A stretch of 23,930 nucleotides of DNA, taken from IMG/VR virus record IMGVR_UViG_3300032562_000176, positions 1 through 23,930 of that record; one strand, written 5' to 3'. The notes below the pieces were generated by a model. The model was not told where the DNA came from. It did no database searches and saw only the letters and a program-made list of their open reading frames with translations. Source of the stretch: a virus. Within the stretch, counting starts at the first letter, position 1. The number at the start of each line of letters is the position of its first letter. Position numbers and translations under genes: made by a program. Of the stretch, positions 2,601-23,851 are shown piece by piece.

Positions 2601-2930
2601 TTACTTCTTAATCTTTGTTTCTGTACTTTTTAATACACCCTTAGCTTTTTTAAGTGGGAAAGGCTCCACGGGTTTTACTACTGTATTGGCCATTGTCTCA
2701 TAGTAATCCAAGGTCTTTGTCAAGGCACTGTGTAGCTCTTGTACAAACTTAAAGTTTGCCTTGTCATAGTCACCCAGATAAATATTAACCATATCTTTTC
2801 CAGTGCTAATTGCTAGGTTGATGTTGAAGTTTTCCTTATCGGTCCCTTCACCATAAACATCAAAAAAGCTGGGAAGATTATAGTCCTCCCCCGGAAAGAA
2901 CTTACTAGCCTTAAACTTTAATGTCTTCAT
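2601..2930 (-). CDS. Conserved-looking phage protein of unknown function next to DUF2815
   Basis: I do not recognise this 109-residue protein. It is mixed alpha/beta in character with a lysine-rich tail (KKAKGVLKSTETKIKK) and no membrane segment. Its ATG overlaps the stop of the single-strand binding protein by four bases (ATGA), so the two are translationally coupled and may act together at the replication fork. A strong terminator follows. Confidence 0.75.
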   Translation of the reverse strand: MKTLKFKASKFFPGEDYNLPSFFDVYGEGTDKENFNINLAISTGKDMVNIYLGDYDKANFKFVQELHSALTKTLDYYETMANTVVKPVEPFPLKKAKGVLKSTETKIKK

Positions 2931-3445
2931 ACAGCAAAGTCCGACGCTGCTGATGTAGACCCACCAAACTTCTCACCATCCTCTAACTTCTGCACATTGT
3001 TCAAGCCGGCAGCAATACCCTTAGAGCCGCTTGTATCGTACGGATACAAAGTGATGGATGCACGGCCATAGCAACCTGAGTAGAACTCGCTGGTGTCGAT
3101 GATTGGGTTCAGGTCTTGGTCTACAATACCTGGCTTTTCATTGCTTGATGCGTTAATGAAGTAGTGACCTGCGTACGCAGCGTCATCTTTCTCTGCATCA
3201 CCATCACGTAGTCCGCCTTTAAGGAGCTTAGGTACTGAGCCACCCCACACGGCTGCGTTGATTGTCTTGGTCTCTTCAAACGCCTTCTTAAAGCGCGCCA
3301 CTGTCTCTGTGTCTGACTTAGGGATAAGGATGGATACAGAGTACTTTAACACGCCGTTTGGTGTCTCAGCTGGCTGGAACACGTTAGCGTAAGAGAAGCG
3401 AACCTTGCCAGTTACAAACTTGGTCTTGATTGATTTTGTTGCCAT
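2927..3445 (-). CDS. DUF2815 single-stranded DNA-binding protein
   Basis: The sequence fits the DUF2815 phage family of ssDNA-binding OB-fold proteins. Visible hallmarks are KVRFSYANVFQPAE near the start, the KYSVSILIPKSD segment, and the later FINASSNEKPGIVD and SGCYGRASITLYPYD stretches. Such proteins coat single strands during replication and recombination. An ATG at 3484 is also in frame, but MATKSIKTKF at 3445 has a good AAAAAGG site and begins where the family does, so I use 3445 (172 aa). Promoter motif 3511-3525 lies about 65 bases upstream. The C-terminal tail is acidic/serine-rich. Confidence 0.85.
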   Translation of the reverse strand: MATKSIKTKFVTGKVRFSYANVFQPAETPNGVLKYSVSILIPKSDTETVARFKKAFEETKTINAAVWGGSVPKLLKGGLRDGDAEKDDAAYAGHYFINASSNEKPGIVDQDLNPIIDTSEFYSGCYGRASITLYPYDTSGSKGIAAGLNNVQKLEDGEKFGGSTSAASDFAV

Positions 3446-3510
3446 GATGATTATTACCTTTTTAACATAAAGACTGGACTTCATTTGGGGCCAGTCTGTC
3501 TACCCATACA

Positions 3511-22321: not shown

Positions 22322-22627
22322 CTAGATAAATTGAAAGTACTCAGGGTTAAACTCGCCCCACTGCTCTGCCTTGTCGCCGATCAGCGAGCCCTTACCGAGC
22401 TCGTGGTCGAATACTGCCACGCAGTCCTGATCCAGTGCCGTCGCCAGCACGTCCAGCGACCCCTTGTGGCTGATGTACTGGATGATGACTGTAGGCTCGT
22501 CCCCATCATAAGAGACGCGCAGGTTGACAATGTCCTGCACAAATACCAGCGCGACCTCGAGTGTCTTATCGACACTGTTAGTGTTGCCAATGAATGGATT
22601 GTTTAATCCGATGTTGAGTGTGTACAT
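22322..22627 (-). CDS. Phage protein, third cistron of the early operon (101 aa)
   Basis: MYTLNIGLNNPFIGNTNSVDK opens it, with VTIIQ-type strands and LDQDCVAVFDHELGKGSLIGDKAEQWGEF later. The YTLNIGLNN...QDC.AV....G.LIG pattern recurs in phage early regions, function unknown. AGGAG precedes the ATG, and the whole upstream gap is ribozyme copy A, so after cleavage this gene's mRNA would start with a hairpin about 45 bases before its ATG. Confidence 0.75.
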   Translation of the reverse strand: MYTLNIGLNNPFIGNTNSVDKTLEVALVFVQDIVNLRVSYDGDEPTVIIQYISHKGSLDVLATALDQDCVAVFDHELGKGSLIGDKAEQWGEFNPEYFQFI

Positions 22628-22644
22628 ATATGCTCCTGTTGTTT

Positions 22645-22695
22645 GGTCTCATCAGTATACTCGAAAAGTATAGACCACGTCAAGTGGTTTCGACC
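22645..22695 (-). ncRNA. Type II hammerhead ribozyme, copy A
   Basis: Read on the minus strand from 22695: GGTC (stem II, 5' side), GAAA, CCAC-TTGAC-GTGG (stem III), TC (cleavage), TATACT-TTTCG-AGTATA (stem I), CTGATGA (conserved core), GACC (stem II, 3' side). Every core base of the hammerhead is present, CUGAUGA and GAAA included, and the cleavage triplet is the canonical GUC, cutting between 22673 and 22672. The open stem is II, the type II layout. It begins two bases after the stop of 22698-22844. Confidence 0.9.
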
Positions 22696-22697
22696 TG

Positions 22698-22844
22698 TTA
22701 GCCTTGGAAAATTCTAAACTGGCTGGCTGGGAAGTCCTGCGAGTGTTGAGCTATCAGCCTGTTAGCCTTGAACTCACTGGCAACAACGTTAACAGTAATC
22801 CAGCCGTTTATAACATACTCTTGCACTTTGAATTTGAATGACAT
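22698..22844 (-). CDS. Small protein, second cistron of the early operon (48 aa)
   Basis: MSFKFKVQEYVINGWITVNV opens it, with VASEFKANRLIAQHSQDFPA behind. AGGAG precedes the ATG. It is bracketed by the two hammerhead ribozymes, so its mRNA would be cut free on both sides. Function unknown. Confidence 0.72.
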   Translation of the reverse strand: MSFKFKVQEYVINGWITVNVVASEFKANRLIAQHSQDFPASQFRIFQG

Positions 22845-22863
22845 GTTAGGGCTCCTATGTATT

Positions 22864-22915
22864 GGTCTCATCAGTCAGCGCATTACGCTGAGACCACGTC
22901 TCCGTGGTTTCGACC
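22864..22915 (-). ncRNA. Type II hammerhead ribozyme, copy B
   Basis: Read on the minus strand from 22915: GGTC, GAAA, CCAC-GGAGAC-GTGG, TC, TCAGCG-TAATG-CGCTGA, CTGATGA, GACC. Stem III can be CCACG/CGTGG capped by a GNRA-type GAGA loop. Cleavage is expected between 22892 and 22891. Four of six stem I pairs differ from copy A with pairing kept. It begins three bases after the stop of 22919-23167. Confidence 0.92.
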
Positions 22916-22918
22916 TGC

Positions 22919-23167
22919 TTACTCAAACTCTCTGACCATCTGCTCTACTGCGTAGAACGCATAATCTAACTTCTGTTTTAGATCATAGTTTGCTTGCTGT
23001 TGATCTACCAAGTACTCGAGGCGCTCAGGGTTGCCCTTGAGTGCGCTCTTGACTATTGCATCGTGGGTGTATGTTGCGTGTGCCTGCACCCTGCGTTCTG
23101 CCTTAAGTACTTCTAAGATGGTCATTAGATGTGCGTAGGACAATGCTGTCTTGATTGCTGTTGTCAT
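22919..23167 (-). CDS. First cistron of the early operon, helical protein (82 aa)
   Basis: MTTAIKTALSYAHLMTILEVLKAERRVQ opens it; the whole chain reads as helices (EYLVDQQQANYDLKQKLDYAFYAVEQMVREFE). As the first gene behind a strong host-type promoter it should be made at once after infection, a position where host-takeover proteins are common. That role is inferred only. AGGAG precedes the ATG. Confidence 0.78.
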   Translation of the reverse strand: MTTAIKTALSYAHLMTILEVLKAERRVQAHATYTHDAIVKSALKGNPERLEYLVDQQQANYDLKQKLDYAFYAVEQMVREFE

Positions 23168-23373
23168 GGTATAGCTCCTGTGTGGTTGTGTATTAGTACT
23201 GCCTCGAGCTCACTGGTATCAATGAGCTCTGAGCATTACTATCTATCCACTGTTGAGAATGCTTAGCTCCGTGGGTAACTCTTCACTAGCATCTATGCAC
23301 TAGGTCTGCCACATGATTAGAGAGGTTGGTACTTAGTCGCCTCTTGAGTGGATTAGCCACTGCACTTCCGATG
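23168..23373 (-). other. Structured 5' leader of the early operon
   Basis: About 205 bases separate the promoter from the first ATG. Hairpins include AGTGG/CCACT (23347-23351, 23357-23361), AGCATT/AATGCT extended by GAGCT/AGCTC (23224-23237 with 23258-23269), and GAGCTCA/TGAGCTC (23206-23212 with 23223-23229). The last two compete for 23223-23229, next to the ribosome site. No gene seen. Confidence 0.55.
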
Positions 23374-23379
23374 TAAAAC

Positions 23380-23408
23380 AGTATACCGACCTTGGAATGG
23401 AATGTCAA
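23380..23408 (-). promoter_or_regulatory. Near-consensus sigma70 early promoter
   Basis: On the minus strand TTGACA (23403-23408) is separated by exactly 17 bases from TATACT (23380-23385). It faces the early operon. Transcription should begin near 23373. Confidence 0.88.
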
Positions 23409-23687: not shown

Positions 23688-23851
23688 TGCACCACATTGG
23701 TGCGCTGGTCTGCGTTTCACATTGTGAGATAACATACCACAATGTGAAACGTTTGGGCGCGAGGCTATGTGGAGTGAGTGCTTACTTACATCATGCACCA
23801 CATTGGTGCGCCCCAGTGAGTACTCACTTACTTAGTGCACCACATTGGTGC
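23688..23851. repeat. Three copies of TGCACCACATTGGTGC dyad
   Basis: Exact copies lie at 23688-23703, 23794-23809 and 23836-23851. Each is a dyad GCACCA-CAT-TGGTGC. Copies 2 and 3 lie in longer repeat units, AGTGAGT..CTTACTTA..dyad, 42 bases apart. Protein-binding sites are the likely meaning. Confidence 0.85.
23713..23751. repeat. 14-bp perfect inverted repeat sharing CACATTG
   Basis: CGTTTCACATTGTG (23713-23726) and its complement (23738-23751) flank an 11-base spacer. It contains the CACATTG heptamer of the nearby dyads in both orientations. A large operator or a hairpin is possible. Confidence 0.8.

Follow-up and report, generated by a model that had tools for sequence, protein, structure and literature searches.

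The closest described relatives of the system reported here are the hammerhead ribozymes, type II examples included, that Perreault et al. (2011) found clustered around single genes in prophages (PMC3088659). Cleavage in vitro was seen in that study for three tandem arrays (C. scindens, A. caulinodans and A. tumefaciens) and in E. coli for the last of them, and the processing of long phage transcripts into single-gene or operon-length mRNAs was already proposed (PMC3088659). Four of the 18 hammerheads that resembled the consensus showed no cleavage, and the majority of type II ribozymes carry a pseudoknot in which loop I forms at least four pairs with the 3′ tail (PMC3088659). In the haloviruses HF1 and HF2, the 5′ end of an early mRNA falls within 3 nt of the cut made by a variant hammerhead, HHphage (PMC3088659). 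A later review (De la Pena 2017) describes hammerheads that flank small ORFs, ties them to phages and leaves their role open (PMC6155905). The HDV-like theta ribozymes of gut phages are likewise self-cleaving phage RNAs, but they belong to a different class, linked to tRNA-based recoding and not to the separation of protein genes (PMC10879173).

The window analyzed here, the whole 23 930-nt stretch of DNA from an uncultured phage, contains two predicted type II hammerheads on its minus strand. HHR1 (22864-22915) is identified by descriptor, covariation, covariance model and fold, and HHR2 (22645-22695) by descriptor and covariance model, with a weaker fold. As in the clusters of Perreault et al., the two hammerheads flank one gene and lie on the same strand of a phage operon. 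The locus differs from those clusters in coming from an uncultured phage, in its position at the first junctions of an operon, in the tight spacing to stop codon and Shine-Dalgarno site that we measure below and in its covariation within the phage family. It also differs in loop I, which in most relatives is a UNANG-like pentaloop and not a long pseudoknot partner. Like HHphage, whose 5′ end was mapped at the cut site, a hammerhead here would front an early polycistronic phage mRNA; unlike the window's ribozymes, HHphage is a single element with a variant core that precedes the first ORF and is not repeated between genes. An earlier note on this DNA knew of no phage operon with serial ribozyme punctuation; the claim that nothing of the kind had been described is wrong, the arrays, their cleavage and the same idea all being in Perreault et al. 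2011 (PMC3088659). What we did not find described in the open-access literature are the tight fit between stop codon and Shine-Dalgarno site, the runs of up to ten ribozymes and the sharing of stem II.

Both ribozymes are built in the order GGUC, GAAA, stem III hairpin, UC, stem I hairpin, CUGAUGA and GACC. In HHR1 (52 nt), stem II pairs 22915-22912 with 22867-22864, GAAA occupies 22911-22908 and stem III pairs 22907-22903 with 22898-22894. The GUC triplet ends at 22892, stem I pairs 22891-22886 with 22880-22875 and CUGAUGA lies at 22874-22868, so that the predicted cut falls between 22892 and 22891. The corresponding elements of HHR2 (51 nt) are stem II at 22695-22692/22648-22645, GAAA at 22691-22688, stem III at 22687-22684/22678-22675, the end of GUC at 22673, stem I at 22672-22667/22661-22656 and CUGAUGA at 22655-22649, with a predicted cut between 22673 and 22672. 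The hammerhead core (CUGAUGA, GAAA, and U16.1 and C17 of the GUC triplet) is complete in both, and the topology is that of type II, with loops closing stems I and III and stem II opening to the flanks. The predicted 5′-OH ends, 22891 and 22672, agree with those given in the earlier note. HHR2 stem III had been flagged as terminator-like; we rejected it as an intrinsic terminator, HHR1 and most relatives being without a T run.

Our type II descriptor matches the window exactly twice and has no match in 200 dinucleotide shuffles of it; neither the descriptor nor the covariance model detects a third hammerhead in the window. The minimum free energy (MFE) fold of HHR1 is the hammerhead fold. The predicted fold of HHR2 is weak, with a probability of ∼0.2 with flanks and ∼0.6 alone; it is less secure in isolation than that of HHR1, and its MFE structure in a 77-nt segment is a different fold. 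Loop I of either ribozyme can form at most ∼3 pairs with the 3′ tail, as judged by inspection. The Rfam hammerhead families (RF00008 and its clan) give no match to HHR1 or HHR2 at gathering thresholds, and permissive settings yield a weak type III match to HHR2 only (20.3 bits versus the 48.5 needed). Rfam-based annotation misses this type II subclass although the architecture is present, and the subclass is therefore probably under-counted.

The operon that contains the ribozymes starts with a sigma-70 type promoter, TTGACA-17-TATACT, at 23380-23408 of the minus strand (11 of 12 consensus matches), which predicts an early transcript beginning near 23373; a comparable −35/−10 region lies upstream in most relatives. 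Between the promoter and gene 1 is a structured, conserved untranslated leader of ∼200 nt (23168-23375, minus strand). It contains the strongly conserved motifs GACTAAGTACC, GTGGCAGA and GATAGTAATGCTC and hairpins with compensatory changes in relatives; 12 of its 41 consensus pairs are changed on both sides. The leader has no credible Rfam match; it may serve the early transcript as a regulatory or antiterminator-like RNA. Gene 1 (82 aa; 22919-23167, minus strand) has no PHROG match and ends with TAA at 22921-22919. It is followed by GCA, HHR1, AATACAT, the AGGAG of gene 2 (22852-22856) and gene 2 itself (48 aa; 22698-22844), all on the minus strand. Gene 2 ends with TAA at 22700-22698 and is followed by CA, HHR2, AAACAAC, the AGGAG of gene 3 (22633-22637) and gene 3 (101 aa, phrog_11722; 22322-22627), which heads a long run of overlapping genes on the same strand. 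HHR1 thus begins 3 nt and HHR2 2 nt past a stop codon, and both end 7 nt before an AGGAG, the near-equal spacing remarked on in the earlier note. These are the only two long gaps among otherwise overlapping small genes, and the ribozymes fill them.

The promoter at 23408-23380, the leader and the position of gene 3 homologues at the start of autographivirus genomes support, by analogy, but do not prove, the assignment of this operon as early. Among cultured phages the homologues of gene 3 are all distant, in autographiviruses and one other phage; in Achromobacter phage Axy23 and Acinetobacter phage Acibel007 (both Autographiviridae) they are among the first genes. A search of pieces of four phages with distant gene 3 homologues detected no type II hammerhead, and the window has no cultured close relative at the DNA level.

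Relatives were retrieved through the proteins of genes 1, 2 and 3, independently of the ribozymes. Among 14 loci with a gene 3 relative (49–100% identity), a type II hammerhead adjoins the gene in 13, before it, after it or on both sides; the search used here found no ribozyme in the remaining locus, L135. Hammerheads in the window's phage group are confined to the first one to three junctions downstream of promoter and leader, and the later genes overlap. Across seven loci, junctions with a ribozyme have gaps of 67–77 nt, versus a median of −1 nt for those without, in line with the earlier statement that the remaining early genes overlap or nearly touch. In one relative (L129, 3600-3720), a deletion seems to have removed gene 1 together with most of the leader, and HHR1, which follows shortly after the promoter, is retained despite the loss of its upstream gene.

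The pairing of the stems is maintained as their sequences are rewritten; stem III, for example, changes from CCACG/CGUGG to CAGUC/GACUG in L123. Among 33 distinct 52-nt ribozymes, 100% of the cells are paired and 10 of 16 pairs show double changes, giving a covariation score of 0.673, compared with 0.120 in shuffles and no more than 0.100 when the structure is slid. This support comes from stems I and III, since stem II is invariant in the 33-ribozyme set, partly through the search pattern; alternative stem II sequences pair in other phages. As a control for circularity we used raw pattern matches in which stem I was left unconstrained: the 17-nt stem I has at least six pairs in 100 of 100 of these, versus 4.3% with shuffled partners. 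The covariance model recovers HHR2, which was absent from its training set, at E = 3e-12. Relatives preserve the catalytic core (CUGANGA, GAAA, and GUC or GUA), whereas their stems are free to vary. In the wider set of 159 hammerheads described below, a conserved A is found on both sides of stem II (154/159 and 129/158). Hammerhead variants in which an additional U separates CUGAUGA from stem II (CUGAUGAUGACC) occur in the related phages L136 (3446-3498), L137 (2134-2186 and 2783-2833) and L138 (3663-3715 and 4312-4362).

The same placement recurs well beyond this family. We surveyed 333 phage hammerheads in two sets (159 and 174), with genes called by a simple ORF and Shine-Dalgarno caller, not curated, and with some loci interrelated; about 60% have a stop codon before them and a Shine-Dalgarno site after them, versus ∼3% of random places. 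In the first set, which comprises distinct hammerheads, in most of which the search pattern dictated stem II, an ORF stop codon is found within −3 to 40 nt in 133, mostly −1, 0, 2 or 3 nt from stem II. A downstream Shine-Dalgarno site and start are present in 119 of these 159, and both sides are occupied in 100, versus 3.1% of random same-strand positions. The second set, from a looser pattern, has a stop codon in 141, a Shine-Dalgarno start in 116 and both in 97. The longest run is in contig L212 (3925-6750, minus strand), where ten type II hammerheads occupy ten consecutive gene junctions and stem II begins directly on or beside the stop codon in most copies; L180 and L229 have eight each. 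Predicted hammerheads at gene junctions are thus a common arrangement in uncultured phages, in runs of up to ten. The exact GGTC pattern matches five stretches in the genome collection (bacterial chromosomes) versus at least 119 in the viral scan, so the subclass appears to be mainly viral.

L180 and L030 have no cultured matches. Rhodobacter phage RcWaterboi (MW677528.1, 10394-10459) came to light through a BLAST match to an L212 ribozyme; in it a type II hammerhead, recognized by eye, lies 1 nt past the gene 19 stop and just before gene 20. Our descriptor missed it because of an internal mismatch in its stem III. RcWaterboi shares the window's topology and placement; only one hammerhead was seen in the 20 kb examined.

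HHR1 and HHR2 are probably functional type II hammerheads that cut the operon RNA at its first two gene junctions. From their sequence, structure, conservation and position, which are directly observed, we infer cleavage in the cell, its timing and an effect on expression. Cleavage would most likely be cotranscriptional and would uncouple genes 1, 2 and 3. The first piece would carry the structured leader and gene 1 (∼480 nt) and the second gene 2 (219 nt); the third would start 45 nt before gene 3 and continue through the rest of the operon. The monocistronic pieces proposed in the earlier note are thus expected for genes 1 and 2, and the third piece would be polycistronic. The last element of each upstream RNA would be the stem III hairpin, and each downstream RNA would open with the stem I hairpin and a 5′-OH, the arrangement of ends that the note had described and that type II topology requires; that these hairpins might protect both ends was a further proposal of the note. 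Hammerhead chemistry leaves a 2′,3′-cyclic phosphate at the 3′ end of the upstream product.

The placement also suggests how cleavage may relate to translation. Because it lies 2–3 nt from the stop codon and 7 nt from the Shine-Dalgarno site, each ribozyme fills the space between terminating and initiating ribosomes. Judging from general ribosome footprints, a ribosome at the stop codon should cover part of stem II, and one at the AGGAG should crowd the other stem II strand. The ribozyme therefore fits exactly between two translated genes, and its folding should compete with terminating ribosomes unless the RNA is nascent. The cut would separate the fates and translation of the flanking genes, and the later, overlapping genes would stay coupled. 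The cleavage of comparable arrays in vitro and in E. coli and the halovirus mRNA end are precedents in favor of processing (PMC3088659). Against it we count the weak HHR2 fold, the short loop I–tail pairing, the ribozyme-free locus and the four hammerheads of the 2011 study that did not cleave. If the proposal is true, a virus of bacteria with a DNA genome splits its mRNAs by catalytic RNA and not by a nuclease. The role of phage hammerheads becomes directly testable with a phage family in which two ribozymes are conserved at fixed junctions and with contigs that have runs of up to ten.

A single helix, stem II, connects the two cleavage halves, and within a contig it tends to be common to the copies while stems I and III differ. 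Across 34 contigs with at least two hammerheads, the second stem II pair is identical with a frequency of 0.86 within a contig versus 0.35 between contigs; for copies that differ in at least four of six stem I pairs, the figures for identity are 105 of 118 within a contig versus 33.5% between. This pattern bears on the best of the alternatives, in which the ribozymes serve mainly as gene-cassette connectors that retain activity. Because the cut splits the ribozyme into two self-contained halves joined by stem II alone, genes with compatible halves would be exchangeable, stem III going with the upstream gene and stem I and CUGAUGA with the downstream gene. In L123 and L124 the same ribozyme pair indeed encloses an unrelated gene in place of gene 2, 42 of 75 related hammerhead pairs share one flank only (ribozyme junctions alone were compared), and L137 and L138 pass from unrelated to identical between stem III and stem I. 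However, phage genomes are commonly mosaic at gene boundaries, and a within-contig excess is also seen for the basal pairs of stem I, which fits simple descent. The divergence between L123 and L124 is gradual and not located at the ribozyme, so a sharp recombination breakpoint at HHR2 was rejected. We regard connection as the main role as unlikely; it would in any case be compatible with RNA processing.

Shared stem II sequences and gene exchange around the ribozymes together suggest interchangeable halves with a phage-specific key. A wider proposal, which we put forward tentatively and rate as rather unlikely, is that type II hammerheads form a general punctuation and plug system of phage operons, in which stem II is the phage-specific key and cleavage yields single-gene mRNAs. 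Each gene would then follow the 3′ half of one ribozyme and be followed by the 5′ half of the next. Were this true, genes could be gained, lost or reordered with RNA processing kept.

HHR2 contains a promoter-like site, TTGACG-18-TATACT (22654-22683, minus strand), with 10 of 12 consensus matches. HHR2 could accordingly act mainly as a promoter for gene 3 and later genes, with an RNA start near 22647, its ribozyme form being either a relic or a solution common to DNA and RNA. Although the loop that holds the TTGAC motif is unconstrained, relatives retain the motif, and the site reads TTGACA-18-TATACT in L124. Such sites occur in only 6 of 334 distinct hammerheads, all of TTGAC or GTGAC type with an 18-nt spacer and mostly from the window's phage group, and HHR1 has none. 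The region is also generally richer in promoter-like sites than its shuffles, and HHR2 keeps its stem I pairing and an intact core, neither of which a promoter alone would need. We consider this explanation improbable, clearly more so than the connector role, although gene 3 might have a second RNA source, given that HHR2 is the weaker folder and carries the promoter-like site. That HHR1 and HHR2 are structured translational spacers or mRNA stabilizers with incidental or rare cleavage is the least credible reading and very improbable: the ribozymes do adjoin the stop codon and Shine-Dalgarno site and their hairpins are stable, but relatives keep the exact catalytic core while the stems vary, and plain hairpins would not need CUGANGA, GAAA, GUC or GUA.

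Cleavage at the two junctions thus remains the reading we prefer. Two further features of the window were recorded. A DUF2815 RNA motif (RF03084, 73.8 bits) lies at 3443-3506 of the minus strand, at the start of a 185-aa ORF (2927-3484). The segment 23667-23853 is a control region with three 39-nt repeats containing the palindrome GCACCACATTGGTGC; within it, 23713-23751 includes a perfect, operator-like 14-nt inverted repeat (CGTTTCACATTGTG/CACAATGTGAAACG). Palindromes resembling those of this region are also found in L129 and L136.
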